Assembly (NCBI GenBank): GCA_031213475.1
Contig: JARUPZ010000020.1
Coordinates: forward strand, 10,529,562 to 10,593,561
Reading direction: 5' to 3'
DNA: 64,000 nucleotides
Source of the DNA: Nereocystis luetkeana
Taxonomy: Eukaryota > Sar > Phaeophyceae > Laminariales > Laminariaceae
The position numbers and the translations under genes were made by a program. Under the pieces are notes generated by a model. That model was not told the origin of the DNA and ran no database searches. It worked only from the letters and a program-made list of their open reading frames with translations. Positions 2,608-25,996 of the stretch are shown here, in pieces; positions within the stretch are counted from its first letter, which is position 1; each line of letters starts with the position of its first letter.

Positions 2608-2688
2608 CTCCGTCGTAGCCTGAGTTGTGGGAAATGTAGGTAGACCCATCAAATCTGATGCCCGATCGGGAGGAGTAAAGAGCTCCAC
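2608..2688 (-). CDS. Exon 16: Pmp coil (27 aa), last one seen
   Basis: An 81 bp exon whose coding potential is visible only as a coil between splice sites: acceptor CTACAG|GTGGAG, donor GGAG|GTAAA. It codes GALYSSRSGIRFDGSTYIS followed by HNSGYDGG after the rebuilt glycine. It is divergent (F-D-G-S-T-Y-I) but keeps the G-A-L-Y start, H-N ladder and terminal G-G. No further coil exon was found between it and position 1. Confidence 0.6.
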
Positions 2689-3807
2689 CTGTAGGTAAAA
2701 TAGGTCGAGCGTGGGGGGGTTTGGTGTATGCCTAGCACCTCGCGCGTTGTGCTCTTTGCCGGATTAGAGAGGAGCTTGATACATGATTTCTCAAGGCGGG
2801 TTCAAACGGATTAGGCGCAGAGCAAAGCAAACAAGAACAGAGCATCTAGATGGAGCCCACAACGCTTCAAACCACCCTACGACTTGCGTCAGACGTTCCT
2901 ACTGCTAAAAGTTTACTAGACGTGTAGGGCCAATAGACGAAAAAAAACTAACTCAGAGGGAATGAACCCAAAGCCTAACGATAGGCAAAACGCGTTATGT
3001 GCTCCGAATTGCCCGCGTGTCTCAATCCGTAGGTTTTCCGCGGCAGTCCTTAACTATCGCTTGCAACACGGAAGCTTTCGACGGGGGAATAGACCGTGTG
3101 CACCACTAGTAACCAAGCTAATTCGGAGCCGAAGATTAGTATCTAAATTTACTGTAGTTTTTGTAGGTATGTCCAAGACGGTGCCTTTTACGAAATGTAT
3201 GGGCCACGGCTGGCTGTTGCCGGGTCGGATGTATTTTGATTTTCGTCCAAGAGGTTCTTGGTCCATGGGAGCAATGCTACTTCAACTCCGTTGTGGCTAG
3301 CGTGGTTCGCAACGGGTACCTTCGAAACGGTGCACTTTTGCGAAGAAACTGGGATCGCACCTAGGCGCAAACCGTCTAAAACATTCAGCTACAGCAGCTC
3401 TCAACTTCGCCAGTAAGCTGGTGCATAATCTGAGACACCTGCATGCATGCAGAGGTTCGAAACGCTATTCCGCCGGTGCGTATCGCACTGTTAATAAAAA
3501 TATGTCAATGCGTGGTACATCCTTTTTTTTACTTTACGTAGGCCACGTTCGGACGTGTAGACCGAAACCATACCAGTCGAAAACGCGGAAGCGTGCAGCA
3601 TGCTTCGTCGAAAGATGCTTCTTATTGCGCCTTCGGGAACAATGTTGATATTGCAAGCCTGTCGAAAATGTCTACGTGTCATTCACGTACACAACACAGC
3701 ATATTTATTTGGCTATAGTGTCATCGAATCATGTTTGACGTAGGCGTATGACGACAGCCTGTATGATGCGACAATGTCATCAGCGCACGCTTGATGCAAT
3801 GCCTCAC

Positions 3808-3888
3808 CTCCGGGCGATTTGGCTGTGTTGTTAATAACTGAAGTGCGGCCGCCGATATAGATCTTCGACTCAGAGGCATATAAGGAAC
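3808..3888 (-). CDS. Exon 15: Pmp coil (27 aa)
   Basis: An 81 bp exon coding GSLYASESKIYIGGRTSVI followed by NNTAKSPGG, acceptor CAACAG|GTTCC, donor GGAG|GTGAG. Ser replaces Ala at the second position and Arg replaces the core Asn (G-R-T-S). Phase and ends are intact. Confidence 0.7.
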
Positions 3889-5242
3889 CTGTTGAAAGGC
3901 ACAAAGAGAGTGTGTTTGTGGCATAGATACCTTCTATATGTCTTTTCCGTGGTACAGAGAGAAGGAATGGCAGACATGTATCAACTCGCACGGGCAGATA
4001 CACACGACGTTAGCAAAGCACGCGAGTTCGAGCTCGAGTCGACCGAATACTTACAAAAAATAATGGTATGCAGAAGGTACAAAAGACCGAACACTTTGCT
4101 ACCTGGTACAAAAAACAAAATCATACTTCGAAGTATCTAGCTAGGAAGTAAGCGTCCCCTCCGCCACCGCGGCGGTAGGACCTCACCCCCCGTTTCCATA
4201 CATCTTGTAGTAGTAGCCCCTGTACAGCTGCTCCCACGTTTTAGGGAAACTGTACTTGGAGTTTATGTGGGACAGAAACCGTACACGTGATATTTCCACA
4301 TTGGGCCAGCAACAAGAGCAACCAACAAATACTACAACAATAAAATGTGCTAATCAATCTGCTGGAACAGGTTGCGTGGAATTAGTGTGACACAGCAAGA
4401 ACACACAAAATATTCTCACTCTAGTCCAGGCCAACAACAACAATAAAACACACAACCCAAACAATGTTTACAGTGGCATGAGGGTGGGTTTCTCGGCGAG
4501 TTTACGTTATTTTGTGACGTGTATTCACTCGGTTTCAGTACGACATATACCCTCTCTGTAGTATACTCCCCTGTCTGGTCTCGAACATAATAGTGGAGTG
4601 TCGGATTGTGTTTACCTTTGTCTGTTGAGGCAAGTGTGTTCAGATAGCTTTATTATTGGACCATAATTGGGATATTGCTTTCATGGTTAAGCGAGATGCG
4701 CGCCAGCGTCCAACGTTTGAACTGGTACCAAATATCATACTAATCTCAGGTATTCTTAAGAACTTGACAACCAGACATAATTAACAGCAGCAACAAGCTC
4801 CTACTGCTGCTACTGGTCAGCTGGTGGCGGCGAAGGTAATGGTGATTGATGGCCTCTGGTGCCTGGTTCCTAATTCGTTCTCCAGTGAGGCAGCAGCATA
4901 CCGGAACGAATACAGCAACTACCCACCACCACCACCACCATGTGAAGAGATGGCCGAGGGAAAGGGTAACGGACGCAGGTGTATCTGATAGCTGGGAAGC
5001 AATGCTTGGCTTCTTCTGATATAGAGATTCCTTATTGTTGGTGAGAGGTAAGAAAGTGCGCTCGTAGGCAAGTGAGAGGTAGAGGGGGGGGACTCGACAC
5101 CCAGATATTATGCTCGTCCCACCCGATGCTACAACCACTCCTAAATTCCTCTCATCTGGATGGACTCCTATGTATATTTCCTGTGGCTACCGATCGTTCT
5201 TCTGCTAGTCTAAGAACTTCTCATTTCATGGTCCTATCTCCG

Positions 5243-5339
5243 TTAACCCTTTTAGAACCGCAGTCCAGTTTTGGGGACAAACCACTCAGATTTCAAGTAG
5301 TTTGTCCCCAAAACAGGACTGCGGTTCTAAATGGGTTAA
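5243..5339. mobile_element. TTAA-flanked MITE, piggyBac type
   Basis: TTAACCCTTTTAGAACCGCA at the left is mirrored by TGCGGTTCTAAATGGGTTAA at the right, giving a 97 bp near-perfect hairpin with an internal GTTTTGGGGACAAAC/GTTTGTCCCCAAAAC pair. TTAA target sites and a CCC start are hallmarks of the piggyBac superfamily. It lies in an intron of the beta-helix gene. Confidence 0.8.
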
Positions 5340-5810
5340 GGAGCATCACTCTAGTCTCACGAGGTATCCGCCATAGAGAACACTCTGAAAATAGCGTTCC
5401 CCTCGGCTAACGCAATATCTGCCGGGTTAATACATTCTTGGAGTATCCCCGTGGTCCTGAGACTACAAAATTACAGACTATTATCTATATGTAGCCCTAT
5501 GTAGCCCATGCGTACTTCACTCCTATCACATTAGCCCACCCTGAATAGTCGAATGTGCACACCACAAGATGATCGAAGGATGATGACAAGTTCATCCCAA
5601 ACGACCAGAAAAGAGGTCGAAGATGCGGCCATTCGAAACAAAGAAAATTAAACTATATAACCCACCATACCTCGTAATAAGACCCAAACACTAAAATGGG
5701 GGATGCTCCCTGAGAGCAACCACTAGAACGGAGACCAAAGGAGAAGACGACATAACTCAAAGCGGAGGCGAAAGGAGAAACCAGCCAAAGCGAAATCAAT
5801 GAATAACGAT

Positions 5811-5856
5811 AACCACCACCACCACCACCACCATCACCACCACCACCACCACCACT
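5811..5856 (+). repeat. (CAC)n microsatellite
   Basis: About 15 CAC/CCA triplets with one CAT interruption. Open frames through it encode poly-His or poly-Thr/Pro and are not evidence of a gene. Confidence 0.9.
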
Positions 5857-6363
5857 ACCGACAAGCTTCAGCTGGTACTGGTGCTCAGCTAGTGGTGGTG
5901 GTGGTGGTGCTTCATTCGAGGATGGTTGTTATGGAGGCCTCGGGTACCTGCCACCTGCTATCTGGTATGCCGCGGAATACGTACGTATGCTCACTGTTCC
6001 TAGGACGACTCCTGGTACCTGGTAAATAGACCACTCATCATAACCAAGCTTCGTGAACTCACGACGGGTTTGAGCACTATCAATAGTAGAAGAGGATACA
6101 TATATGCTATTTAAGGGCCTTCAGAGAAGCCGCCCGTTTCGAAATCGGTGGTGTTTCGGTCGCGCACGGTGACAGAAGGCGACGTACGCGTATCATATGA
6201 TAGGAGTATCGGCACGAGGATGAACGATACAATAAAAAAGTAGATCAACGACGAATCACTGTGGCCACGACCACAAGCACGGCGCAAGTACAAGTTGTAA
6301 TATGCCAACGTGCAACGTAATAAGACGGTCCCGGACATGTCGGTGTAGGGAGAAGCGTGCGGT

Positions 6364-6858
6364 TTGAATGTGGCTGGTGAAAAAACTGGAATATGTTTAT
6401 TTTTGCGTTTGGTCCACTCTAAGTTGCTAGAATGTATTTGGCGTCAAATATCACTTGATGAACGCAATGCTCTTTGGGCACCAGACGAACAGCAATATCT
6501 AAAGCAGATGTATCATTTCCTCGATTCCACGACGGGATTAACCCGGGGTATGCATGCCGCATCCCAAGGCAGTGGGACGTGATACTCCCAGGCCAGAGTG
6601 CTGAAACTCAACCACTCCGACCTTATGTTGGCCGTGGGGAAACGCCCGCAGGACCTAGGCGAACAGTATAATAAGAAATACTGGACCTTACAACACGTAA
6701 TCAGGGAAAATGGAATCATGGAGTACGCCGACGACGCTTGTCACGATGGTATTCATAGTTTATCGGCCATGTATCTGAGAAAACTCGAGGCTCTAAACTA
6801 CCGTAAATCGAGGCACGGCAGATCATCAACGAGTTATGAAACTGCACACTCGAAGTGA
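6364..6858 (+). pseudogene. Open frame relic with one in-frame stop, unknown
   Basis: One plus-strand frame runs from an ATG at 6364 for about 165 codons with a single TGA at 6580-6582. The two halves read as ordinary soluble protein (ALWAPDEQQYLKQMYHF, then NHSDLMLAVGKRPQDLGEQY). I recognise no family. It lies on the opposite strand to the beta-helix gene, in its intron, so a decayed inserted gene or transposon fragment is possible. Chance openness cannot be excluded. Confidence 0.25.
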
Positions 6859-6896
6859 TGGAGTGAATGTCGCCTGAAATACAGGAGTATTCTCAC

Positions 6897-6980
6897 CTCC
6901 GGCGCTCCTGGCTGCATTTCGGTGAAACGAGGTGTGCCCGTTGATATTCACTGAAGAGTTTCCAACGATGTACGCGGCAC
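6897..6980 (-). CDS. Exon 14: Pmp coil
   Basis: An 84 bp exon coding GAAYIVGNSSVNINGHTSF followed by HRNAARSAGG, acceptor CACGCAG|GTGCC, donor GGAG|GTGAG. It does not fit classes A-C cleanly: it has the I-N-G core of class C and the Y-x-V-G-N-S-S segment seen in class B. It may be an older or hybrid coil. Confidence 0.7.
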
Positions 6981-7721
6981 CTGCGTGTTGACAATGTAAA
7001 GTGTGCGGGTTATTAAGACACCCAACTACACACAAAGACGACCCTAGATCTACTGTTGTGTGACCTCGATTTAAATTCCAACGTTGCATTGAGTAAACAC
7101 AATTATCTCACCAACTAACTAGGTAGAAGGCTTACTCTCGGCAGTCTCCTGAATAGGCCCGATCGTCAACATCTACCCGCTACCCGGCCCGTGCGTTCGC
7201 TTGAATAGCGCCTCAGTGTGCTCGCGGTCCCGATACTGTTTTTGTTTGCACGCTTTGGCCCGTTAGATGACATCGAGAGGCACAGACAAAAGTGTTTTTG
7301 TTCGATCGAGACTCGAACTATCAACCCTCCGTCAGGAAGAACGACAAAACAAGCGACTTGGATCGCCAGCATAAATATACCCGATACAAGGCTCCCCTCC
7401 GGGAAGCGCCTAGAAGAAGAGGAGTGGCGTAAAAACAAAATCGTACTTTGAAAACTCAGAAACAGGTCTATTTTACGAACGAGAAACTACAATATTCCAG
7501 GATCGTGTAGGGTAGTTTGTCCGCTTTCCATGTATGTATGGCAGAGAGGGTTGTAACGTTGTATCTTCATAGATTGCACGCTCTACACCCCTCTCGCGCT
7601 TGCCATTATTTGTTGTTCGGATTGTACTCCCAGAAAAAAACCCTCTGTATACAGAATGATATGCACCATTCAAATATTTACATCAACATACAACGGCCTT
7701 TCTTTACATTTCCGGGCGTGA

Positions 7722-8560
7722 AGAACAGAACACAACACAGATACTCATACAGAGTGCTATTATATATAATTCATCATGATGGTGGCATGTAATGTCTATG
7801 CGCACACACAGGCACCACAACACAGCATGTTGTCTATATATCCGGTCGGGCAGCGCGGCAGTAAGGTCACAGCAAGCTGATATACCACGGTCGGCACTGC
7901 TGCTGGTACTAAGTGTTGTTTGTTGTGTGGCTTGTGCTCCGAGGACAAATACATGATATCCGGTAACATAGGAACCGTTTACTAGTTAGTACTTCGAAGT
8001 AATACTATTAAACGGTCCGTACATCAATCTATGGAAAAATGGCTAGTTAGGTGAAAAATAACGGAATACAACACCCGCGAATTCGTACATAAAGAGTGCT
8101 GTACAGAGTGCATCGTCTGGTGGCATGTATGTATGACACAAAACGCCGCAGCACAGTGTGCCTATTGATCCTGCTGGGCGGCAGGGCTGTAATGTCACAG
8201 CAAGCCGGTTGCAGCACGGCGTTCACTGTGTTGCTGTAGTTGTGTGCTGCTTATATTTCGCTCCCAGGACTAAACACACAATATCCGTATAATACGAGGT
8301 TCATATGGGCACTATTTGTGAAAAAAAGATATCACCATAATAATCGGCCCTTACGTACATTTCAGGACAAAAGGGCTGTCTACGTGAAACATAACGGAAA
8401 ATAACACACACATTGGTACATAAAAAGTGTTGTACAGAAGTACATAATGAGGATGGCATGCATACGTATACATACACACACCACAGCGCAGCATGACTAC
8501 TGATCAAGTTGGGCGACAGTGTTGTAACGTTGTTGCTGGCACGCTCTGCAGTTTTCGGTG
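7722..8560. repeat. About 335 bp tandem repeat, 2.5 diverged units
   Basis: Phrases CATA(C/A)A-GAGTG(C/T)T, GGTGGCATG(T/C)AT, CACAGCA-GTGT and GTCACAGCAAGC recur at an offset of about 335 bp (for example near 7740, 8075 and 8410). The units are about 65-70% alike and lie within the largest intron. Confidence 0.55.
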
Positions 8561-9444
8561 GTTCTCCTATAATATAGTACTCCGTAAAAGGGCATGGGCT
8601 TGCAAATGTTATCGTATTCGTGTGATGCCAATTAATGGCCGAGTGGCACCAGAAACTGTATATAGCCAGAATAAAACAATGTGCTTTTGACCGTACAATT
8701 AACGGTAAATAGTTGTTGTTGTTTCGGTTGTGCATCGTTCGTTGGTGTTTTGTTCTCCATACTTCCTATTACTGCACTTTGGTGTACGTAGCGTTTTTTC
8801 TTGTTTATTTTGCGTTTAATCCCGTTTTCTTGTTTCGCTTTTTCCGGATATTTTTTGTCTTGCTTCTTTGTTGTCGCCGTCGAGTTTCGTTGATTTGCTT
8901 CTCGATCTGTTTTGATTTCCGTAAAACCGTGCTACCGACAAAACTGATACAACGGTATACAAAAAAACACACACAAGCCCTTGACCTCTGGAACGCTCCC
9001 CAATCTGAGTATATTGTGAAGCGTACATTGGACACTCCGGGGACGCTGTGAACGCACTCCATTGGCCAATGGCTGACCTTGAGATTTGTGGGTCAATGTT
9101 GTTTTTTTCAGGCCAACCGGAGTACGTTCTCGAGGTAACCCAGCCGCCACATGTGTGTAGTAGTAGTGTAGTACTGCCATCACGCGCATACCAGGTATAT
9201 TGCTGGGCATCAGCCACAGCAGATACCATTGCCGGCACATTTACATACATTCCTGGTACCTAACGCCATGTCACGCTAAAAATGTTTGTTTATTCGTAGT
9301 GAAGTATGTTGTTGAACAATAATAGCATAGCAGCTGCTACATCACGTTGTAGTCGCGAGTACAACGTATTGTCTACCAGGCATCGTCTGTAGCGTCCTGT
9401 CGTAAATACAGGACATCGATTATATATCTAACACACCTCGGATA

Positions 9445-11255
9445 ACGTAACACTTGACGTTTTATGTTAGTGTTGGGCGCCAGCGAAAACACCCATAACA
9501 GTACGTTATTACGTTAACTACTATCTGGATTTTGTGATACCATCGAGTTAGTGTGTTACGATATTGGCGGGCGATCGTATAACATTATGATAGAGTGTTA
9601 CCTTGATCCCGTAATGACCGCAGTATACGTGTTACGGTGTTAGGGTATTCAGCCCATAGCGAGTAACACAATGTTAGCGTGTTAGCGGAATTCCTTGTTG
9701 TGGCTATCTATCGTAACACATGTTGAAGGGAAACCGTAAACGGCCAACTAAACGTTAACATTATATTACTGTGTCTGCGACATCAGTCCGTAGCGATCAA
9801 CGATATGTTAGTTTGTTAGCGGGGGATTCATATTTGCTACCGTAACATCCTTTTAGACGGAAAACGCACACGGCCAAATAAACGCGTACACTCCACTATC
9901 TACTTTAGTGTGTTAGTAAAATTCTTATACTAGCGGTTATCGTAGAGCACACGCTAATAGAGGGATGACGTATATGCTCAATACAACGTTAACATTATGT
10001 TACCGTATCAGCCGCGGCAGCAGTCCGTATCGAGCAACATTATGTGAGGGTGTGAACGAAAGTCTTGCTACCATAGCATTCATTAAACAAATAACATATA
10101 CCACGTATAATCGATACCACACTAACATAATATTAATGTGTAGCTCGCAAACAATGTATGTAGCGACACAAGTTAGCAGATAATGTACACGCCCAATCTA
10201 ACATCACAACCATATGTCACTGCCGTATTAGCTTTTGTACGTGCGAGTGTACAGATATATATATATATATATATATATGCCGTTATAGATGGATAACGTA
10301 AATTACGTTTTTTTAGATGGATAACGTACTGGCGGGGTTTCCAGAAGAACAATGATGCGTTCTTTTGCGGGGACCTCTCCTAAGTATCCCCTGTTTAGGT
10401 TTTTTAGAATATGGGGGCGTTTTTACCGGGTAGGCCATGCTATCTTCCCCGCAGGGATATTTTTCTAGGTATCCCCTACTGGGATGTCGGCGAAAATCGA
10501 TATTACGGCTACGTTATGTCACTCCCACACGCCGATTTACCACTAACACAGGTAACAATTGTTGGGTCTCGGGAAGGTCCAAAGGGTAACCTACTACTGT
10601 AGTAACATTACGTTCGAACGACTTCGGCCCCAACGGTAAGTCAGTAACATAATTTTAGATCCGGATAATTTGTTTTGGTAACACGGTAACGGAATGTTTC
10701 CTTCAGATCTTTACTGACGGTAACACCGTAACATAATGCTAGAAATACCTCCACATTTAGGCTAACATCCTAACATAATGTTACGTATGGGTCGGCCAAG
10801 ACTGTAATGTATCTAGCGTCTGTTAAGTGTTACGTTATCCGAGCCTAAGACAATCAGATGGGGGGTCCAGATGACGTAGTGTAGAAGTAGTGCTGGCGAA
10901 CATGGTAACGTTATGTTAGGTTGTTATGTATGTGTAAAACTCCTCCTAAGAAGGGTAATACTATGTTAGTGTGTTAGGTCGAACGCTGCGTCGACAGTCA
11001 CATTATGTTATCGTGTTAGTAAATATGCGCATATCGATCTGGGCAAGTTACGTAGAGTGAAAACGTGCGTGTTTGGTCAAAGCGTAACACTGTGTCACGG
11101 TGTTAGTTCAAGGGCTGATCACGGCACAGAGCTGGACGAGATCGAGCAGCAACATAGCGTCAAGGCGTGTGCCCGCTCGTGGGTTTCCAGTTAACATGGT
11201 GTTCCCGCGTTACCGCTATGGCTCCTCCAGTGCTAACACTACGTTAGTACGTTAC
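9445..11255. repeat. Field of TAACA-ATGTTA dyads
   Basis: A 20-24 bp phrase of the form GTAACACAATGTTAGCGTGTTAG recurs in more than twenty variants. Clear examples are 9663-9686, 10762-10785, 10955-10977, 10997-11019, 11083-11106 and 11232-11254, usually 40-120 bp apart with unrelated spacers. The phrase has dyad symmetry around TAACAT/ATGTTA. Confidence 0.65.
10255..10278. repeat. (TA)n microsatellite
   Basis: About 12 uninterrupted AT dinucleotides inside the TAACA dyad field. Confidence 0.9.
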
Positions 11256-11536
11256 CACGTTCCTGTGTTATACCCTATAACGTAGATAAGTGTTATCCGA
11301 CTGTCACGTCATCCGAGGTGTGACATTTAACACTAACAACCCAAAAAAGTACCGTCTCTTTTATGTGTTAATTCTTGACTTACTTACTACTGTACTGTAT
11401 GTAGCTGGACTTTGGATCCTCAGGAATTTTGCTGATGTACGCGGGACAGCTAATGACGGGCATCATCCCACCGTGGCGAATCCTCCCTCGTATACTACAT
11501 GTGTTTGTGTCCTATAGTTCTGAACAAGTTTCTCAC

Positions 11537-11617
11537 CTCCGTTGTCGGCGAAGTTGTTGTGGATTTGATTGTCACCGTGGACGTTGATAGACGAACTCGC
11601 CGAAGCCCCGATGGCAC
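11537..11617 (-). CDS. Exon 13: Pmp coil, class C-like (27 aa)
   Basis: An 81 bp exon coding GAIGASASSSINVHGDNQI followed by HNNFADNGG, acceptor GCGTGCAG|GTGCC, donor GGAG|GTGAG. One residue shorter than the class norm. The I-N-V-x-G core follows class C, with Asp-Asn-Gln in place of Asn-Thr-Ser. The next intron toward the 3' end is the longest in the gene (about 4.6 kb). Confidence 0.7.
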
Positions 11618-12854
11618 CTGCACGCAGGAAACGGCGTTGTTCGTGATGAACATTTACAGACCACCGGGAAGGTGGCGGGGCGATAACTCGTGTCGTACTC
11701 CTAATATTCGATGGTCTCAACGATATCGCTAAGTACACTAAAATTACATTAGAAACTGCAGTATCCTCAAGACGTTCTATCAATAGTGTAGAACTCGAAT
11801 GGAATGTACAAGGGGTCGCTGTCCGTGCCCCCGAAATGGCATGATAGCAAAGAAAGGCTAACGCCGGAACTGATAGGCGCTCATACTGGTGCTGGTGACT
11901 TGGTAGAAGAAAACGTGTACCAGCACATTAATCCATCGGGCCAAATTTGGCGTAGATCAGTAGACTGGTTGGGGTCTATGTGGGTACCGTGATGCAGCAG
12001 CGGGGAGTGACATCGTGTGGGCTGTCTCCTGTCCCGCAACATCGAGACAGTAGAATAATAGGTGTATTGTAGCTGTGCCGTGGGTTGCTGGACTCTCTAA
12101 CGCGACACTTCGATACCTAGCAACGATGACAAGTAGGTGTTGTTTGATGTCATCCGCTAATAATAGTCATTTGTAAAGGCACTTTGAAAAGGGGGCGAGT
12201 CTAGGGCCCCGAGACACATGCATTGTTTGTGAAACACCTAAATTTGCCGGTATAGTACGGTTTCATAGTGAAACACAAGAGGATCCCGATCGCCTTGTAC
12301 AACATTGCGGACGCCACGTCGCGATTTCGCGAAAGTTGAGCATTTGCTTGCAGCGCGGGCCGGTTTAAGCTGGCATGCGACAAGCTTGGCGTATTCATAA
12401 ATCATTTAAGATGGAGTGCTGAAAAATCCGATCCTTCTAACTTGGCACCAATGATAGAATGCTCCGAGACGGGGCGCAACCCGGTTAGGTTCGTCAAAAC
12501 GCTTGCCCAAAATTGTGCTGCGGTCGATTTCGAGGGGAGGAGTCATCTTGCAGTGGTTTTTCAACGGCAGGCGTGAGTATCTCAAGGCTATTCAACGGAC
12601 AACAAGCGTGCTCACCCCTAAATTATAGTAGAAATACCTGAAGAAAACATATGCAATCAATCAAAGCAGCCAGAGAGGTGTGGCGTAGGGTTGGCATGGC
12701 GTAGAGCATTCATCTATGTATGGTTGTATGTGTCGAATAGGGCTTAGGACGGGAAACGCTAATTTTATCAACGGACAGACGTCGCGACTGTCGAACCGCA
12801 CACAACCCGGCCACATGAGATCATCTAGTTTGTACGATGTAACCGGGCTTGGCC

Positions 12855-13264: not shown

Positions 13265-13348
13265 CTCCGTCAGATTCGGCATTATTGTTGAGAATCGAGG
13301 TGCTGCCCTCGATGTGCAAAGAGGAGTTACCGAACACATATATAGCAC
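13265..13348 (-). CDS. Exon 12: Pmp coil, class B
   Basis: An 84 bp exon coding GAIYVFGNSSLHIEGSTSI followed by LNNNAESDGG, acceptor CTGCCCGCAG|GTGCTATATAT, donor GGAG|GTAAG. Both exon and acceptor match the other class B exons (19598, 16298). The coil keeps the Asn ladder (L-N-N-N). Confidence 0.75.
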
Positions 13349-14366: not shown

Positions 14367-14450
14367 CTCCATCGATGGTGGCAGTGTTATTGGCAAAAGT
14401 GATGTTGCCGTCGACCTTTGCCGAGGAATGTTGAGACGCGTAAAGGGCAC
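14367..14450 (-). CDS. Exon 11: Pmp coil, class A
   Basis: An 84 bp exon coding GALYASQHSSAKVDGNITF followed by ANNTATIDGG, acceptor ATCAG|GTGCC, donor GGAG|GTGAG. It shares the V-D-G-N core and the A-T-I-D-G-G ending with the exon at 22993 and starts the last A-B-C triplet (14367, 13265, 11537). The upstream intron contains a TACCAGGTACC-type palindrome at 14606-14626 and an array of three CCCTAA units at 14801-14819. Confidence 0.75.
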
Positions 14451-15050: not shown

Positions 15051-15134
15051 CTCCGTTTTCCGCGGCTATGTTGTTGATAAATGAGGTGTTGCCGTTGATG
15101 TTGATAGATGTACCTAAGTAGGCACCTAGGGCAC
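15051..15134 (-). CDS. Exon 10: Pmp coil, class C
   Basis: An 84 bp exon coding GALGAYLGTSININGNTSF followed by INNIAAENGG. The acceptor is CCACCCGCAG|GTGCC. A second AG at 15126 would give a 9-nt shorter exon that also stays in frame. The donor is GGAG|GTGAG. It is the closest relative of the exon at 18958. Confidence 0.75.
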
Positions 15135-16297: not shown

Positions 16298-16381
16298 CTC
16301 CGTCATTTTTGGCAGAGTTGTCGCGAGTGGATGCGCTGCCTTCGATTTGAATGGAGCAGCTAGTGAAAAGATATATAGCAC
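16298..16381 (-). CDS. Exon 9: Pmp coil, class B
   Basis: An 84 bp exon coding GAIYLFTSCSIQIEGSAST followed by RDNSAKNDGG, with the class B acceptor CTACCCGCAG|GTGCTATATAT and donor GGAG|GTAAG. The aromatic F at the usual G-N-x-x-F position is lost (A-S-T-R). The exon otherwise parallels those at 19598 and 13265, including the intron side. Confidence 0.75.
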
Positions 16382-17025
16382 CTGCGGGTAGGCAAGGTTA
16401 GTCGTGAGGGTCTTCCGCCCATCCGACGAAACACGTGGACGGTGGCCCATGAACGACCCAGTGTATCTATACGAAGAAAAATGATGATACGGGGTGAAGG
16501 ACAATATCGCTAATGTATTGGTAGCAGGTTGGCATATCAATATAGATGACGGTCTGGGGGTGATCCAAGTCGGTGCTTTTTATCGGGTTTGAAGGGAATT
16601 CAACCATTTTCCGTACTTGTGATGTACACAGGCTCGTCTAAGCTACACTCATGACCAACGGAAGTTCATGCGTCTTAGGCATGACCACTCATGCACGTCG
16701 TACTGCAGACGACCCGCCAATGCCACACCATAATGGTGTTTGCGCTTGCTTCTTCACACCAGCAACAACACCGCGTTACATCTATCGAGGTACACAATAT
16801 AAAAAAAGTGGACAATTTCTTCGACGGGGCCCACTGACCCCAATAAAGACCACTGCCTCGTAGCGTTTCTGGAGAATAATCAAAAGCGATAACTCCCGCG
16901 CTAGCACCTACCAGGTATGTAACTTCACACGCTCGTAGTGCACGGCAGGAATGCATTTTATGTCCTCCAAGAAGAGCTGAACAGCAGCATTATTATAGCA
17001 CAATCTTGGTCAACAGTTTCCTCAC

Positions 17026-17109
17026 CGCCTTGCAAGCCGGCCAAGTTTTTGTAAAACTTGCTGTTGTCGCCGACCTTGATGGAGGAGCTATGAAAAGCGC
17101 ACAGGGCAC
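17026..17109 (-). CDS. Exon 8: Pmp coil, divergent class A
   Basis: An 84 bp exon coding GALCAFHSSSIKVGDNSKF followed by YKNLAGLQGG. Its donor is GGCG|GTGAG instead of GGAG, still restoring Gly-Gly at the junction. Tyr-Ala is replaced by Cys-Ala and the core glycine is shifted (V-G-D-N), making it the most divergent intact coil. It interrupts the A-B-C order as an extra A-like exon. Confidence 0.65.
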
Positions 17110-17624
17110 CTGAAGGTACACCAAATGAGGCCGAACGGATATTAATTTCTTCTCAACAAATTTAGCGGCACGACAGACTGTACGCTGATTCGGAATTATG
17201 CTGTTGTCCCTCCCGTAGAATGCACTATACCACAGGAGAGCGGTGAAGAATAAAAAAATGGCAATGACGTGGGCTATCCCGGGAGTAAATCAGCTATGTG
17301 CGCGGGGCAAAGCGTTGTTAGAGAGGGTTTTAAAGCGGATACAATTTGGCTACCTTCAGTGGATTCTGGAAAGTGCGCTTAGCTAACGCCACGCACAATA
17401 CACTCATGGTACAGGCTATGCGCCGGGGGCTGCGTGGATACTGGATACTGAGGCTATGCGTGTGTGAAATAGAAAGACAGCGAACCAAAGCCCACAGGCC
17501 AGACTCCCGGGGAACGAAATATTGTGAGACTGCGCCTTTTATCGAAACTGTTAGCCGCAGGTGATTTGTGCTGGTCAAGGGACTAAAAGCGGTGAAGTGA
17601 CTGAATATTCCGGACGTTGCTCAC

Positions 17625-17708
17625 CTCCGTGGAACCCGGCAGAATTATCCCCAAATATACTGTCGCCATAGACGTCTATAGAGGAGCTCTCGGAAGCGTA
17701 TAGTGCCC
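17625..17708 (-). CDS. Exon 7: Pmp coil, class A
   Basis: An 84 bp exon coding GALYASESSSIDVYGDSIF followed by GDNSAGFHGG. The acceptor reads GCCAG|GGGCAC, so the first two exon bases are GG rather than GT, but the rebuilt codon is still glycine. The donor is GGAG|GTGAG. Asp replaces Asn in the inward-facing ladder position twice (G-D-S, G-D-N). Confidence 0.75.
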
Positions 17709-18136
17709 CTGGCGATAGGAAACGGGCATTGTAGGAGTTCTTATCACACGAACGGTAGGGTGAGGACGGTCTGTACACGACTCCGGAGCCATATTCAACA
17801 CACCCGCCACAATGTATGTGCCAATCGGAGAAGGACTGAAAGTTATTTATTTGGGGTATTACTCGTTTGGGTGTGATGGTTCACGAACGAAACGCTGACG
17901 AAAGGGGCCTTGAAATGGGAAATATCTTTTGCACCTGCTCTGGTTCAAGATGTTGCACCCTCTTCTAGACACAGCTTGTAGCGCGGATCCGCCACAACAA
18001 CCACCAACGGCACAGACAGTGCGTATCTAGGCTACATGCTAAAGCATCAGGCAGTATACTACTGACTGCTCATCGGCAACAAAGTCGTTTACAGGAGGTA
18101 GGTCCAATATGCAGCTCAATTCGTCAGTGCTCAGTA

Positions 18137-18241
18137 TTACGGGGGAACATAGTTAATAGGACCCATGGTATACATAAAAACCTTTATAGTTACTCATTTT
18201 TACTAACAGTATTTGGTCCTATTATCTATAGTCCCCCGTAA
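18137..18241. mobile_element. TA-flanked MITE (Tc1/mariner-like), copy 1
   Basis: The ends TTACGGGGGAACATAG...TAATAGGACC and GGTCCTATTATCTATAG...CCCCGTAA are inverted repeats of about 35 bp, bounded by TA at 18135-18136 and 18242-18243. The internal part is AT-rich with a TTTTTACTAACA phrase. It is intronic and has no coding capacity. Confidence 0.75.
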
Positions 18242-18744
18242 TAGCATGAAGCACTATTGACGTAAGAACATGATATACAATGTTATGCGGTCAATCTACA
18301 TTACGTGCCAGATGCTATATACTTGGTATATGAGTAGTATAGTCTGGCAGCCGCAGTGTGGTGAAACTGATTCCTGCTAGGCAGGCGGTACAATCCAGCG
18401 CGTAGTCGAACGCAAAAAACACCTTACGAGAAGTATTCGTCGGGCGATTGCCGATAGCATTTTTTCTCCAGGAGCAATCACCAAAAATCATTGCTGTGGT
18501 CGACCAGTACACGGACCCGTGATAGGGTAGATCTAGATGTAGAGACGAAAGGGTTGAAGATAGTTCTAAAAGCCACCTAGACCACAACATATTCTGCTCA
18601 ACTCGTTTTTATATTTTAAATATCAATTTCCTTTGTTTAGGCCCACAGAGAGCCACCTTTCATAGTAATATATATATATATTATATTCGGCACGAAGCTC
18701 TACAGCCCGCCTATCAGTGGCATGTGCCAAATATCTAGACTAGC

Positions 18745-18805
18745 ACCTCCGCCAGGATGTTACACGTGGACACTCCGACAAAAGGTTTTGCGCCTCGACG
18801 TGTAT
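18745..18805 (-). pseudogene. Decayed class C coil fragment
   Basis: Plus-strand sequence from CTCCGCCAGG onward follows the layout of the exon at 18958: an AAAAGGT-TTTGC block, then a GACGT block at matching spacing. It has a TAA in the reading frame and no clean acceptor. It looks like a partial duplicate of a neighbouring coil exon. Similarity is short and was judged by eye. Confidence 0.25.
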
Positions 18806-18957
18806 CTACCGTGCAAAAAGCCTGTCCAAAGCCGATACCATATCAAACCTGTGGACACGAAATATCCGGATACTCATTTTTGACAGACGGACACTTAAAA
18901 GCTGACGATGGCCACCGAAAACGTCAATGAAACAGCGCATGTTCAGGGGGTTCTCAC

Positions 18958-19041
18958 CTCCGCTTTGCGTGGCTACGTTGTGAACAAATGAGGTGTTGCC
19001 TTTGACGTTGATGGCAGCGTTTATATACGCACCCATGGCAC
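18958..19041 (-). CDS. Exon 6: Pmp coil, class C
   Basis: An 84 bp exon coding GAMGAYINAAINVKGNTSF followed by VHNVATQSGG, with a CCCGCAG|GTGCC acceptor and GGAG|GTGAG donor. The G-A-Y-[IL] loop and I-N-[VI]-x-G-N-T-S-F core are shared with the exon at 15051 and define class C. About 150 bp further downstream (18745-18805) a decayed copy of the same pattern is visible. Confidence 0.75.
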
Positions 19042-19597
19042 CTGCGGGTTGGCAATTTCGCGTGTCAGTGTTCTCAGCCTACAGGTGTATAACCCGAAGA
19101 CCATGCCCCACGTGCCTCTTCTAATAATACTTGGTTACACGCCGTATGTCATGTGTATAAACCAGATACATTTCGATCCCCGGAATCGCCTCGCGAATGG
19201 CATGCGTGCGGTTTCGGTTCCTTCTCCACATACATGGCTTATTATGCCAAGCTTCGAAAAAACATTTTGGATGCATCTTCTCGGGTACATTACACAGCGT
19301 ATCATCCACCGTCGAGCGTGTCAATGCCGAAAGCTATTAATAATACATAACGGCGCTGGGTACTCGCAGTTAACACTGAACTACATGGCTGGTTACTGGG
19401 ATTTCAGTAGAATCGTGTCTACTTTGGCCGATGTACGTGCTATTGCCGTAACGTTATTGACGAGCTATAGAAAAATGTGAAATAAGGGAAGTCTACTACT
19501 GTACTGTTGACATCTATAAGTCTTCAATGCGGGAATTAATCCCGCTGTACACTCGTACTATGACATATATATGTGTCAAGTTGGAGACGCTACGTAC

Positions 19598-19681
19598 CTC
19601 CGTCATCTTCGGCAGTGTTGCTGGCAAAAGAGGTGCTGCCGGCGATTTTGATGGAAGAGCTGCTATACACATATATAGCAC
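19598..19681 (-). CDS. Exon 5: Pmp coil, class B
   Basis: An 84 bp exon coding GAIYVYSSSSIKIAGSTSF followed by ASNTAEDDGG. It is preceded by a CTACCCGCAG acceptor shared with the exons at 16298 and 13265 (CTGCCCGCAG there). The GAIY start, I-x-G-S core and x-D-D/N-D-G-G ending define class B. The donor is GGAG|GTACG, a weaker +3 context than the usual GTGAG. Confidence 0.75.
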
Positions 19682-20674
19682 CTGCGGGTAGCGATAGCAT
19701 TTTACGTCAGCGGTTTCAGTCCAACTGACGGAGCATGCGCGTGTCGGCCTGAGCACGACTCAGCTATCTATCATCTGCATAAACACACACCCACACTACA
19801 ATATAATATAGCTCACAAGAAATTCCACTGCTGCTACGGAAAAAAGCTGGGGTTAGGATTTCTATTGCAGCAACGGACTATGTAGGCACGCTTCGATTTG
19901 GGTTCGAACTGTAACTCTTGCGTGTATCCACACTTACTTGTGTGATACACTACACCACTAGGCTGGAATCAAGACAACGGGGAGAATGCCATTCTGCCCG
20001 AGGGATGAGCACATATCCCCGCCTTTCAGAATACTTCCCGATAGTACGAGCTCATCAATGCCTGACACCGTCTGGACATCATAAGCGCGCCCGATATAGT
20101 ATTACGTTGATGTTATGCAAGGCGTTGCTTACCGTACAACACGCTAGCGATAACACACTCCCTGGACGACTTTCCGAGCCTAGTTTCTCCAAACCAAGGG
20201 CGGCGCACACGACGAAAATGACGGCGTCGGAACGATTTGGTCGAGGTATTTCCATACGCCCATCGCTCAGTCTTTGCCCGCTCCCTGTCGTCGAGAAAAC
20301 AGGCTTTTACATTTATTTGCCCTGCTACGGTGTGTTACTAGGATGTATGCCATGCTACATTAGTGCTTGCTCTCACAGAAGGTGCAGGTAGCACCGGCGT
20401 TGCTGGCAGTGTCCAGGCGTGCTACGACACACCCGAAACAAGTAGCACCGGTTTCTAAGAATACAGTGAAAACAACAGGGTACTGCTCTGCTGTTCCTCC
20501 GATGAGGCAGTGGCCGTAAACAAATCCACGGACTACGTGTGTGAAGAGCGACTCATATGTTGTGATATTGCTCTCGGTATCGAAATTGTATGTAACCAAG
20601 TAACGAAGACCAAATTTAGGTATGTCAAGCGACAAGAACAGGTTGGTATTTCGAAATCCCAAGACCCTTCTCAC

Positions 20675-20758
20675 CTCCGATGTTGCCGGCAGCGTTGTTG
20701 CTGAAACTGCTGTTGCCGTCGACTTCAATGGAAGAATGCGTCGATGCGTACAGAGCAC
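20675..20758 (-). CDS. Exon 4: Pmp coil, class A
   Basis: An 84 bp exon coding GALYASTHSSIEVDGNSSF followed by SNNAAGNIGG. The donor is GGAG|GTGAG. The acceptor (TATTTAG|GTGCT) is less pyrimidine-rich than its neighbours, yet the frame and coil are intact. The I-E-V-D-G-N core places it in class A. It heads the first A-B-C triplet (20675, 19598, 18958). Confidence 0.75.
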
Positions 20759-22992
20759 CTAAATAAATACAGTAACGGATAATGTAAGTGCTATTGCCAC
20801 ACCTTGCGTGTAGTGTGGCGACCGCCTATTATTACCTCGAAGCCAGGTACACAAAGTCCGGTATGATTGATGCTTCGGGTACGCATGGCGACGTGTTGTC
20901 GAGCTGGGCATTGAACCGTAGACGTATTTTGAATATCTCGCCTATGGACATGGCATAAATAAACACGAAGCTAACACGTGAAACAACGTCAACTGGGACG
21001 CAGTGAGTTGCGACATTCTGTCTCAAGTTTATGAACGGAGTGCCCACTTGTAGTATTGTTGTGGACGTGCTAATCCAGGGGGTTGGCGCGAGCCGCTGGT
21101 ACGGGGGCTAGCAAACTGCACTCGGAAAAATATATCGTGTTGAAAAGCGACACTTTCTGGGCGAGGACGAAGAAGGTTGCCCTAACCCTAAGTTTCCAGC
21201 GAGGTACGAGCCTCGCTCTTTGTGCCTTGTCGAGCTCGAAATGAGTAAAGCTGCTCTCCCGCTATCTCTATGCAATCAACATGAGTATCAACGAGTACCT
21301 GCTCAATAGGCAAACCTGGCAACGGATATAAAGTGTCCCGACCTGGTTTTGCTCTACCAGGCATCGACGGAAGGACATGTATGTGTCGTTGGTTGTGAAA
21401 CAAGTTTTTTGGAACAACAAAAATGTAAAGCGATTTTCTCATGCCAAGAATTTGGTGTATCACTCTTCCTGGACCCGCAGAGTTTGCTACCTGGTACGAA
21501 CTTCGAAGTACTGTAGGCACGTACGGCCCCATGCTGAGATCAAGCACCCCGCTCTTCAGCGTTCCGAAGGGGGGAGAGGTGTTTGCTTAGATTGGGTAGG
21601 GAATTGGCTGACCGTTTACCAGTAGTAGCAACACAGACTAAGACATTATTAACGGTACGTTGTGCGTATGTGGTGCGTGATGAGCTGTTTACGTTTATGC
21701 ACGCGTGTGGGCTGTGCATCTGTGACGTGTAATGAGCTGGATACTTACGTGGATGCATAAAAACATGTTTGCATATTTGACGAGTGATGCGTTGTTTACT
21801 TACATGTATATACATGCGCATGTTCGCTTGTGAGCGAGTGGGGTTATAAATATTCGTGATATATACGTATAAGAGATCGGTGATAGGTGATGACAGGTAT
21901 AGTGTGGGATGAGATTTGTGTGTTACGGTTTGTTTTCGCACGTTTACATGTATGTATGCGTATAGTCGCATGCTGATAATAGCGTGAAGTATGCCGCTCA
22001 TACAAATGCTTTTGCTCTGTTCCCTGTAGAAAACAGTACGCCCTAGAATGCACCCGATGCTCTCTAGGAAACTTGGAATACACGGGGCATGGTTTTCGTG
22101 TTAAACGTGTGCGGGTGTACTAGGCGCGGAGTGGAAATACACGTGTATGCACAGGATGGAGAGAAAATATGCAATGACAGTAAGGACAACACATTGTGGC
22201 AGACGGTTTTAGTCAGAGGTTGATTTTCTCCCCGATAGTAGACAACAACACGCCACCATAAAAACGACACCATTTCTGCGGAAGACTTGTTTGATAAGAT
22301 TGTGGTTGACTACCACTCACTGTGAAGCATGGCACGAAGTCAACATTGACGTGGAACGTTAAGTCTTACGGTATCCGAGGTGTGGAGTCTTGTGATGGAG
22401 GATATATCTTTCTTCCTATCGAAGTTCATGACCAGGAAACTAGCAGTAGTAGTAGCAATTTTACACTACGTTGTAACAGCAATGCAAACAAAAACATTTC
22501 TGTGTCGGCGACGATTCAACGGTTCGTGCATTCTCCACTGCAAATCCTGGAAGCCCCTCGCGCCCATGAGCACTCCCACACATGAGCATTGTGTTGTTGA
22601 GTTCATGTCTTGTTTCCAGATCTCTCGAATGCCAGACACTATATCAACCGGTTTGGGCTGGACAATCAAAGATTGTATTCGAATACGAAATATGTTTCGA
22701 GGCCATGGCAGAGAGACAACAATTATCGCAGTTCGTGTGGAGAGTGCCGACGTTCCACGGGGTTCAGGCATACTTTGTATATCTATTGCACAAATGGTCT
22801 GGGAGTGATAGGGCTATTTATTTTACGGCACACTGGCTCTGATTTCGACCATTTCCTAGGTTTCGCGGTGAATGAGCTGAAGCAAGAAGGTCAACGTTGC
22901 TTTTCTATCGCTGCGTATTCTAGGTTGGGTTTTAGACGCGAAACGACAGGGGGCAGGAGGGCCTTTTGTATCATCATCAAGACGTTCCTCAC

Positions 22993-23076
22993 CTCCGTCA
23001 ATCGTGGCAACATTGTTGCCGAATATGCTGTTGCCGTCGACTTCGACATAAGAACTTGCAGAAGCGTACAGGGCAC
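22993..23076 (-). CDS. Exon 3: Pmp coil, class A
   Basis: An 84 bp exon coding GALYASASSYVEVDGNSIF followed by GNNVATIDGG. The acceptor is TCCAG|GTGCC and the donor GGAG|GTGAG. The V-D-G-N core and the A-T-I-D-G-G ending match the exon at 14367 closely, which defines a class A coil. The intron on the 5' side (23077-24604) carries the relic exon at 23706 and a TA-flanked MITE. Confidence 0.75.
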
Positions 23077-23294
23077 CTGGACATAGACAACGGACACTGT
23101 CAGTCTCCTCGTCCCAACACGCATAGCGCCACGATGGCCCAAGTGGTACTTATATTCCCGGTTTTCAGCGCACCCGGTTCGCAACACAAAGTTACAAATT
23201 CACGGGCAGCAGTGGTCTCGATGACGCACGTACGCACAATAATACGTATCGAAAGGGGATTTGAACTGGAAGCATTGGTAATGCCTCTGTTCAA

Positions 23295-23402
23295 TTACGG
23301 GTAACCATATTAAAGAGGACCTACTTACGTGAAAGGCAAAAACTATATATTTCCCTGTTTTTACTAACAATAATAAGTCCTATTTACTATGGTTCCTTGT
23401 AA
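23295..23402. mobile_element. TA-flanked MITE, copy 2
   Basis: It begins TTACGGGTAACCATATTAAA and ends AAGTCCTATTTACTATGGTT then CCTTGTAA. It shares the internal TTTTTACTAACAATA phrase with 18137-18241 at about 75% identity. The right flank is TA; the left flank is AA, so one target base has changed. Confidence 0.7.
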
Positions 23403-23705
23403 TAGCTCTAGAAAATGCGATTCGCTACATTGGTATGATGGTCGTGAACCTAGCGACGTTCGGTCACTATTCCTATACACCATATTACACGGGATCGTGG
23501 AATGTCCGAAACCCTTTCCTTATATACTGAGGATTCTCAGGCCATGGGCACGATAACCGTGTCACCACGGTCGGTGCTGCGGGCGTTGACAATCCGGACC
23601 ACATTCGTACATGCGACGGAGCTAAAACCAAACACAATGACTTGACGAGTTTGCCGAGGTCGACAATGATCTTTGCCCATAAACAATGTATTTCCAGGTA
23701 TCTTA

Positions 23706-23804
23706 CCCCGGGCTGACCTGGCTTTGTTAACAGCAAAATATAAGCTGCCGTCGAGTTTCGTAGGATGAGTATCCTACATATCTAGACCACCTACGGGTAG
23801 GGAG
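23706..23804 (-). pseudogene. Relic coil exon with in-frame stop
   Basis: A plausible acceptor (CGTAG|GTGG) and donor (GGG|GTAAG) bracket about 99 bp that aligns loosely to a coil: a 'KLDGSLYFAVNKA' stretch takes the place of x-V-x-G-N-x-x-F-x-x-N-x-A. An in-frame TAG five codons in would truncate the protein. It lies between two intact exons of the same gene. I read it as a decayed exon that splicing now skips, but a chance resemblance is possible. Confidence 0.4.
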
Positions 23805-24464
23805 CAAGAGCAGCGGAGGGACGAAGACTGCCCACGTTCTACATCCTACCTGAACTACTGTCTGGTGTCACGCTGGTACTGCTGTGCGTTTGACGCTACA
23901 CCAAAAAGACCGATACATATATTTGGCGGTATATTTATATTTCATGTATAATACCTACACCTCCGGATGAGGTTTTGAAGTGCTACTACTATTGACACCG
24001 AGAAGGTGTTTCGCTGACCAATGTCCATTCCGAATCGGCTTGAATACGGTTAACCTGGTCCCAACCCCAGCTTTAATCCAAACGATCCCTTCGAATGCAG
24101 AAACACAAGTTTTGTCCGAACACTTGTAGCTCAAAGCATGCTGGCTTTTCCGTGCCCTCTAGATGTTCGAGCGTGTTTTTGCTTCTTTTTCAGGGCAGGT
24201 TTCATTGTGTTTGCTTGTCTCTATCTAGAGGGATGCTATTGTTTCCATCTTCCAATTCAAGGCTGTAGGAGGCGAGGAAAGACCGTTTCCGTTGAACAAA
24301 CCGTTTACACTCGTTGCCCACGAGGCACAGGAGCTATTTCCCGCAATATATGAGACTTATTGTTCTGTGACTCTTATGAATTTGCCGCTCTGTGGTAACC
24401 TAAACACAACAGATAAATCTACCGGTTCGATTTGCCGTGTCACATGTATGTCGTGTCTCATAGG

Positions 24465-24566
24465 TTAACCCCTTTGGAACCGCAGTCCCGTTTTGGGGAC
24501 TAAATACTTGAAGTTTGACTGGTTTGTCCCCACATATATATGGGACTGCTGTTCTAAAAGGGTTAA
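24465..24566. mobile_element. TTAA-flanked MITE, second copy
   Basis: A 102 bp hairpin with TTAACCCCTTTGGAACCGCA and TGCTGTTCTAAAAGGGTTAA ends. It is more diverged than the copy at 5243; one arm has an ATATATAT replacement. It lies in the intron just downstream of exon 2. Confidence 0.8.
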
Positions 24567-24604
24567 CGCCGCTCATTATTCCAAAGGGTAGGGTCGTATC
24601 TTAC

Positions 24605-24682
24605 CTCCAAATTGGGCTGAGTTGTCATCGAACGAAGTGTTGCCGGTGACGTAGATTGCCGAGGTAGAGGCATATATTGCAC
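24605..24682 (-). CDS. Exon 2: single Pmp coil (26 aa)
   Basis: This is the first short exon after the cap. It reads GAIYASTSAIYVTGNTSF followed by DDNSAQFGG, with acceptor AACCAG|GTGC and donor GGAG|GTAAG. At 78 bp it is the shortest clean coil, two residues under the 28-residue norm, with the loss in the Y-A-S-x-S loop. It preserves the GNTSF and N-x-A core that packs inside a beta-helix. A TTAA-flanked MITE sits about 40 bp downstream in the following intron. Confidence 0.7.
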
Positions 24683-24994
24683 CTGGTTGTAAAGCGCAAG
24701 GGCTTCTTCAGCGATCTTTCACTGAGTGGCGACTTTACGCCGAGAAGACACCGAAAGAGGCTTCGAAGGTAAAACACATTATTGGGACCACTTTAACACT
24801 ACCAGGTACAAAGGAAAGTCGGTCAATCACCACGGTATATATGCAGAAGGAAAACACGACCACAAAACAAACTGGCAACATTGCAAATCACCTTACCACG
24901 GTAATGATATTGAGAGAAAACAAACTGCTACGTCAGGTTCAAGAAAATAAATGCAAAAAGAGTGACCGGGTCATCTGTCACGCATTCAGCTCAC

Positions 24995-25071
24995 CGCGGC
25001 CACCTTCGATGGCAATACGGCTTGGGTTCCAGTTCCTTCCAAAGCAAACGATTCGTGAACTACCGCTGCGC
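24995..25071 (-). pseudogene. Possible frame-damaged coil exon between exons 1 and 2
   Basis: On the minus strand, after a CACAAG acceptor, the frame reads GAAVVHESFALEGTGTQAV followed by LPSKVAA, then GCG|GTGAG. The layout (G-A start, x-S-x-x-L-x-G-T core, V-A near the end) mimics a coil. At 77 bp, however, it ends in a different phase from every real exon, and the G-G end is missing. I read it as a one-base-damaged relic or a coincidence. Confidence 0.25.
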
Positions 25072-25440
25072 CTTGTGACCCCTTGCTTCTAAAAAAAACT
25101 GAAAGTTGCCTGCAGAAACTGTGTGCTATTCCCGTGCCGGTTTTGGGGCGCAATAATAGCGGACGAGCAACACTTCCAGCACACGGATAGGAAATGCTTC
25201 GCGATGACAAACTCTCGTATTCTAGACGTTTGTTGTTGTCCTGGTGCGGTTCTGCTCATTTCATAGAGATCACTGTGTCGACATATATATATTTATATAT
25301 ATATACGTATGTATATAAAAAACCGCGGTCCAGCCGTGAGTTGTTTTTGGGAGGTGGAGAGTGGCCACTTACTTACTTACTTACTTAGACATTGAATAAA
25401 CTCTGCCCTGGGCGCTTGTATGGTTAACCTGTTGACTCAC

Positions 25441-25996
25441 CTCCCTTCGAAGCGTTGTTGTTAGCAAAGGTGCAACTTGATGCAAAGAGGGAGCTAGAAG
25501 AATGAAGGCCGACTGCCCCCCCATGGTCTGCGTTTCCTCCGTCCAGCACCAAGTTGTTTAGGCGGAGAGTAGACCCGTTGGACACCGAAAAAATCCCATT
25601 GCTATGTCCCCCTCCAGCACCGACGACGCCACCACAATCGATACCGTCCGCCGGAGCACCACGAATGATGGGATAACCGGGCCCAGTGACAGTAACCGTC
25701 TTCCCATTCGACACGCTAATCGTCTGCACGACGGTCAAGGCTGGATACCACGTTACGTTAAAATCCCCTTCCCCCGTGCAGGTCAACGCATCGGTAAGGT
25801 CCTGCACGTCGTCTACTGAGGTCACGTGCACGTCAACAGTACTCGATGGACATGGACATGGAGCTGATTGTGTTCCTGAAACGAAGAAGATGGTAAACCA
25901 TATCATCATCACATTTGCCCCGTGCACCATGCTGTTGGGATATTGCACGAGCGGACGTGACGTGATGCGGAGATCTTCGAAAGTTAGGGCAGTCAT
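25441..25996 (-). CDS. Exon 1: signal peptide and N-terminal beta-helix cap
   Basis: This is the first coding exon of the modular gene. Two in-frame ATGs are possible, at about 25996 and 25930. The second gives a textbook signal peptide (MVHGANVMMIWFTIFFVSG, then TQSA before PCPCP), so it may be the true start. The mature part begins with a 'VDVHVTSVDDVQDLTDAL' segment, then a conserved N-terminal helix stretch (FNVTWYPALTV, VTVTGPGYPIIRG), and ends with two complete coils (DGGNADHGGAVG and SSLFASSCTFANNNASKGG). N-glycosylation sequons are frequent (NVT, NGS, NAS). The exon ends GGAG before a GTGAGT donor at 25440-25436, the same phase as all later exons. The fold assignment is firm; the biological role is not. 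Confidence 0.8.

Follow-up and report, generated by a model that had tools for sequence, protein, structure and literature searches.

A gene of predicted beta-helix coils, encoded one per symmetrical exon, and coil turnover among its relatives in the brown alga Nereocystis luetkeana

Coil exons of the window gene

The stretch analysed here, called the window, covers 64,000 nucleotides of Nereocystis luetkeana (assembly GCA_031213475.1, contig JARUPZ010000020.1, here C20; C20:10529562-10593561) and carries on its minus strand, with the 5' end at high coordinates, part of a split gene in which repeated coils of a predicted beta-helix are encoded one per exon (Table 1). The 5' end of this gene lies inside the window, with a first exon whose N-terminus resembles a signal peptide by eye, and the gene crosses the window's edge at base 1. 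A sequence-only reading had placed the gene at 2608..25996, with at least 15 exons of 78-84 bp that each encode one coil. The coil exons are there, 14 recovered by a scan and one by eye, with lengths of 78, 81 or 84 bp, but the window holds an incomplete gene, which reaches about window position -10,497 (negative numbers lie to the left of base 1).

To be accepted by the scan, an exon had to be open, to be bounded by AG and GT, and to begin and end within a split glycine codon; 14 of 126 minus-strand candidates passed as one-coil phase-1 exons, against 0 of 105 on the plus strand, with a scan devised after some of the exons had been seen and a coil profile built from those exons. On the minus strand of positions 1-26200 it returned 14 exons; none appeared in any of 100 first-order Markov shuffles or in three other stretches of window DNA. 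The fifteenth coil exon (2688-2608) was recognised visually; against a profile of which it is itself a member it reaches 35 bits. Support independent of the window exons comes from the families TIGR01376 and PF02415 and from three paralogs, both taken up below. Sixteen of the 17 coil hits of at least 8 bits in the window gene have phase-1 sites, the exception scoring 8.4 bits.

Each seam of the 15 coil exons interrupts a glycine codon between its first and second bases, which puts all introns in phase 1, in agreement with the uniform phase noticed earlier, and makes each coil exon symmetrical (1-1). The conserved seam that had been described holds for the acceptors (CAG in 14 of 15, TAG in one) and for most donors (GTRAG in 13 of 15), but the GGAG donor context is common rather than universal, and one exon ends in GCG. 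Thirteen of the 15 coils begin with Gly-Ala. The introns within the window measure 515-4556 bp. The start codon of the first exon is uncertain (ATG at 25996, 25930, 25909 or 25906), and this exon has a 71% identical counterpart in C41, the closest paralog (paralogs are named here by their contigs).

Table 1. Exons of the beta-helix gene located in the window
Feature	Position in window	Strand	Evidence
First coding exon: predicted signal peptide, N-terminal cap, first coils	25441..25930	-	open frame, donor gtgagt
Coil exon 1, 78 bp, phase 1-1	24605..24682	-	scan, profile, splice sites
Coil exon 2, 84 bp	22993..23076	-	scan, profile, splice sites
Coil exon 3, 84 bp	20675..20758	-	scan, profile, splice sites
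Coil exon 4, 84 bp, B type	19598..19681	-	scan, profile, splice sites, exon tree
Coil exon 5, 84 bp, C type	18958..19041	-	scan, profile, splice sites, exon tree
Coil exon 6, 84 bp	17625..17708	-	scan, profile, splice sites
Coil exon 7, 84 bp	17026..17109	-	scan, profile, splice sites
Coil exon 8, 84 bp, B type	16298..16381	-	scan, profile, splice sites, exon tree
Coil exon 9, 84 bp, C type	15051..15134	-	scan, profile, splice sites, exon tree
Coil exon 10, 84 bp	14367..14450	-	scan, profile, splice sites
Coil exon 11, 84 bp, B type	13265..13348	-	scan, profile, splice sites, exon tree
Coil exon 12, 81 bp	11537..11617	-	scan, profile, splice sites
Coil exon 13, 84 bp	6897..6980	-	scan, profile, splice sites
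Coil exon 14, 81 bp	3808..3888	-	scan, profile, splice sites
Coil exon 15, 81 bp; gene runs on past base 1	2608..2688	-	eye, profile, splice sites

Two related intron sequences of ~100 bp (24566-24464 and 5339-5242, the 5.3-kb copy being palindromic) perhaps represent a short inverted-repeat transposon family. Upstream of the gene, on the minus strand, near-identical open frames of 168 residues at 29073-29579 and 29792-30298, 719 bp apart, are a recent tandem duplication.

Repeat type and the remainder of the gene

The joined coil exons match TIGR01376, the polymorphic outer membrane protein (Pmp) repeat, with E 1.5e-30 and Chlam_PMP (PF02415) with E 8.5e-29, and the signature of the coils, GGA[ILV]..FxxN, is of the Pmp type. 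In a set of 37 coils taken from four genes, each 28 residues long, G1, N22 and G28 are invariant, G15 and A24 are conserved in 35, and A2 and F19 in 33. According to the part of PMC11166332 available to us, a larger repeat with GGA[ILV] and FxxN forms the single coils of a predicted long beta-helix in chlamydial Pmp proteins. A Methanobrevibacter relative of the coils, found by sequence, was modelled from its sequence alone (predicted local distance difference test score, pLDDT, 70.8; predicted template modelling score, pTM, 0.79), and the model has three strands per ~28 residues across much of its length. The identity of the repeat and this predicted periodicity uphold the earlier proposal that exon borders coincide with coil borders. 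The coils of the window gene may fold as a Pmp-type right-handed beta-helix rod; a PDB sequence search with the joined protein gave no match at E<=0.1.

To the left of the window the gene continues with a sixteenth one-coil exon (C20:10526207-10526127), followed by a several-coil segment, another coil segment and Cys-rich segments. It leads to a 353-residue open frame with many hydrophobic stretches, the match to which ends ~10.5 kb past base 1, giving a distance of 36.4 kb from first exon to membrane exon. Most of these 3' segments (coil, Cys-rich and membrane) are conserved with C41, their exon borders being approximate. Pfam searches with three C-terminal queries revealed no autotransporter beta-barrel domain, the place being taken by the hydrophobic multi-pass exon, and neither LRR with ROC-COR nor NB-ARC with TPR was detected in the joined coils or the C-terminal pieces. 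A TRP assignment for the membrane exon (E 0.1 in Pfam) was not accepted. The encoded protein would thus begin with a signal peptide and continue as a rod of about 20 right-handed beta-helix coils of the Pmp type, sixteen of which have a symmetrical exon each; a Cys-rich segment would follow, and a multi-pass membrane domain would form the C-terminus. The candidate signal peptide and the downstream multi-pass exon fit the cell-surface protein proposed earlier, and surface exposure is predicted from these features.

In the intron after coil exon 15, an 846-bp direct repeat of 99.9% identity (window 113-958 and window -2385 to -3230) looks like the two ends of a young insertion of the long terminal repeat (LTR) type.

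A gene family with varying coil number

The 465-Mb assembly searched contains a family of such split genes plus compact relatives. With the first exon as query and every one of the 115 candidates scored, 67 places reached E<=0.001, and loci were counted from the 35 hits at E<=1e-9 on large contigs, excluding weaker hits and small-contig copies and merging neighbours within 250 kb. Of the 20 loci obtained, 14 lie within 350 kb of a contig end, a zone that makes up 6.7% of the 39 listed contigs (p 9e-13), and 10 lie within 100 kb (1.9%, p 1e-12), both limits having been picked after the positions were known; the interior loci are on C3, C9, C13, C24, C25 and C26. Telomere-like TTAGGG arrays occur at nine of 15 contig ends examined, five ends are without them and one reads N. 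For the membrane exon, 57 of 121 matches were used (small contigs, second fragments and weak C3-type matches were excluded), and 17 of the 25 loci with at least 47% identity lie within 350 kb of an end compared with two of the remaining 13 (Fisher p 0.005), the 47% line having been picked after the list was seen. Loci below this line are mostly compact genes, with the coils uninterrupted in one open frame. The median distance from first to membrane exon is 5.7 kb for compact (18 cases) and 56.6 kb for split genes (18 genes), the exons being paired by strand and nearness and the pairs not checked singly. A 35-base pattern comprising a coil end and its phase-1 donor occurs 107 times in the genome, the reversed control 0 times, and eight of the 100 places listed fall in interior loci (C9, C13, C23-C26). 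Compact relatives, which have a related membrane domain, are found at C22 2.2-2.5 Mb, C2 7.8-7.9 Mb, on C30, C28, C16 and others, with several equal-scoring copies on small contigs.

Three paralogs were partly fetched (C41, C14 and C20:10.71 Mb), and every one of their 34 coil hits scoring 8 bits or more is a phase-1 exon. C41 is colinear with the window gene at about 64-82% DNA identity, but has 18 one-coil exons where the window gene has 16, and the extra two are adjacent. No remnants of them are recognisable in intron 2 of the window gene. B-like exons are present in C14 near the corresponding position, a poorly supported grouping that slightly favours loss in the window gene. In the exon tree, exons cluster by type across genes (local support 0.85 for the B clade and 0.91-0.94 for the C clade), and B-C neighbours recur along the window gene; together these observations point to block duplication before the split of the window gene and C41.

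The strongest case of coil turnover is C10, where coil number varies at far lower divergence. Between the first exon (34359) and the membrane exon (92413) of this gene lie 7.4-kb units of six one-coil phase-1 exons, arranged as tandem six-coil blocks at C10:35697-71447. The copies were located with a 3251-base piece, as a whole-block search was swamped by a dispersed repeat inside the block. Six copies of the piece were found, with identities of 98-100%: three are complete, one runs from base 1482, and two are without bases 1291-2882, the missing 1.6 kb containing exactly two coil exons. The array holds about 29 coil exons, 24 of five types by alignment and five of a sixth type by an identical 35-mer. 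Unless the region is misassembled, coils have been gained and lost on C10 as whole exons between copies that have hardly diverged. At the DNA level, the in-frame gain and loss of coils that had been suggested earlier is thus supported both between genes and between blocks.

The family includes a further arrangement on C22, where eight tandem first-exon copies (L029-L036, C22:171541-660483) are mostly spaced at about 61-63 kb. Compared with L029 without gaps over 3501 positions, five of the seven further copies show 1-2 differences, and among the matches listed there is one split-type membrane exon (701731), with coil-pattern hits only past the last copy. This may represent many first exons before one shared body, or perhaps an effect of repeats or of the assembly. 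Other Beta_helix (PF13229) matches are densely clustered at C8 8.6-10.0 Mb, C14 5.7-6.3 Mb and C3 15.8-16.7 Mb. EsV-1-7 motifs (PF19114), a family described in the part of PMC7457493 available to us as expanded in brown algae and patchy elsewhere, gave at least 150 matches, with 150 candidates scored out of 1718 at first look; the 14 control genomes, of which those named are prokaryotes, gave none.

Origin and possible role of the exon array

The combined results suggest a model, to which we assign a probability of about 0.72, in which the window holds the 5' two thirds of a ~36-kb brown-algal gene for a membrane-anchored beta-helix surface protein, whose symmetrical coil exons arose by tandem duplication and allow coils to turn over. 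Duplication of a coil exon together with its intron ends, singly and in blocks, would give the uniform phase. The long introns would then offer safe targets for recombination, and exchange between them would add or remove whole coils while leaving the reading frame and the stack of coils unbroken. Recombination as the mechanism of this turnover, possibly helped by a subtelomeric setting, is proposed from the arrangement of the exons, and the architecture of the protein suggests a role in ligand binding, in recognition or adhesion.

Several points weigh against this model. The joining of the exons, even constitutively, is deduced from splice sites and conservation. The fold model covers a prokaryotic relative rather than the joined window protein, and AlphaFold of exon 1 alone was uninformative (pLDDT 41.5). 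For the model of the prokaryotic relative, none of the 230 Foldseek matches listed at E<=10 reached E<=0.001; the lowest value was 0.019, and these weak matches were led by the beta-helix proteins fucoidan lyase, phage tailspikes and PfbA, an adhesin. Nothing in Pfam scored above cut-off for the membrane exon. Besides the hindsight in the 350-kb and 100-kb limits, placement counted by hit falls to 21 of 35 within 350 kb, because most C22 copies, five of eight, sit deeper in the contig, and the window's own contig end has no telomeric repeat within its last 400 bases. The near-identical C10 blocks, finally, could in part be assembly errors.

The alternative that survives best, a real contender to which we nevertheless give less than even odds, is a fixed structural adhesin or wall sensor whose exon array is a by-product of tandem duplication at repeat-rich chromosome ends, with variability that is unselected. 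Over 16 coil pairs of the window gene and C41, non-synonymous divergence (dN) is 0.19 and synonymous divergence (dS) 0.45, a ratio of 0.42, and the ratio for exon 1 is 0.29, so that on these figures the protein is under constraint. In the 11 full-length coil pairs the ratio is 0.23 for core columns and 0.50 for other columns (bootstrap 0.28-0.84), with a core set defined from the same alignment and a single paralog pair; positive selection is not shown on this pair. Overall purifying selection agrees with a fixed adhesin, as does the fact that compact relatives manage without an exon array. Against it, coil number varies between close paralogs and between recent blocks, and one coil pair of the 16, exon 7, has dN above dS (0.46 vs 0.37, in a single short exon).

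Somewhat less probable is a splicing repertoire, of the kind raised in the earlier reading, in which alternative inclusion of the symmetrical coil exons would yield many rod lengths from one locus. Any coil exon could be skipped without loss of frame, and alternative splicing is reported for the one-repeat exons of brown-algal ROCO genes (PMC11378527, as far as available to us). Exon symmetry alone, however, is already expected from exon duplication, and where introns of the window gene and C41 can be aligned, identity is mostly 66-71%, close to the level implied by the synonymous divergence.

Parallel insertion of an intron at each Gly-Gly seam of an originally uninterrupted coil array is improbable in our judgement. 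The GGAG/GT seam resembles a proto-splice site, the coils of compact relatives are uninterrupted, and GGAGGT is present at 12 or more of 105 seams in five compact genes. The seam codons of these genes are mixed, which makes repeated insertion less likely, and the three paralogs are split at the same seam in every coil hit. Moreover, where exons of the window gene are similar, so are about 3 to 33 bases of adjoining intron, as duplication predicts, so the uniform phase is best explained by tandem exon duplication. A decaying subtelomeric pseudogene, to which the stop in the membrane exons of several paralogs and the apparent LTR-type insertion might point, is the least credible reading, as the window gene keeps open frames in exon 1, the membrane exon and the 16 coil exons, the last with their splice sites as well, and dN/dS is well below 1.

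Brown-algal ROCO and NB-TPR genes are reportedly the subject of Zambounis 2012 and Teng 2023. The closest precedent for the window gene is the ROCO genes, which in the part of PMC11378527 available to us have one LRR per exon, uniform phase, varying repeat number and alternative splicing, and beside which the TPR exons of NB-TPR genes are mentioned. Both resemble it in devoting one exon to each structural repeat, in uniform phase and varying number, in their occurrence in brown algae and in a proposed recognition role. The ROCO exons are 72 bp in phase 2, whereas the coil exons are 78-84 bp in phase 1, and alternative splicing is reported for ROCO whereas the window gene is known from DNA alone. 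The window gene also differs from the ROCO and NB-TPR genes as described there in its Pmp beta-helix coil, predicted signal peptide and multi-pass membrane exon, and the term 'telomer' is absent from the main text of PMC11378527 whereas the window family is mostly subtelomeric. New relative to the ROCO precedent are therefore the repeat fold (as predicted), intron phase, membrane anchoring and mostly subtelomeric setting. With chlamydial Pmp proteins the window gene shares the GGA[ILV]/FxxN repeat, each repeat being one coil of a long predicted beta-helix; the accessible part of PMC11166332 names Pmp-like proteins in Methanobacteria and Trichomonas and leaves algae unmentioned. The chlamydial proteins are bacterial autotransporters with a beta-barrel, whereas the window gene is eukaryotic and split, and its product would end in a multi-pass region. 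A label in an expression study on a brown alga, given with no gene structure, perhaps denotes an expressed member of the same broad protein family. The var and VSG genes are subtelomeric families of variable surface proteins, and the likeness here is that of a putative surface protein family enriched near chromosome ends; the proteins are unrelated, and switching or exclusive expression is a feature of the var/VSG type, whereas the window family is known from its DNA. Among the best-ranked literature matches, in a coverage without preprints and most subscription journals, neither Pmp-coil exons of this kind nor their subtelomeric placement was found.

A broader and more doubtful extension of the model is a largely subtelomeric repertoire of beta-helix receptors, with rods rebuilt by intron recombination and by splicing of single coils, that might serve immunity or self/non-self recognition; with the LRR and TPR genes it would make three recognition systems of exon-modular design. 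On the favoured reading of tandem exon duplication with coil turnover, the turn of the protein, the exon and the unit of recombination would coincide in this gene. The candidate receptors that brown algae build by exon shuffling would thereby gain a further repeat fold, and comparisons of strains and cDNAs make it possible to test how surface recognition diversifies in seaweeds.

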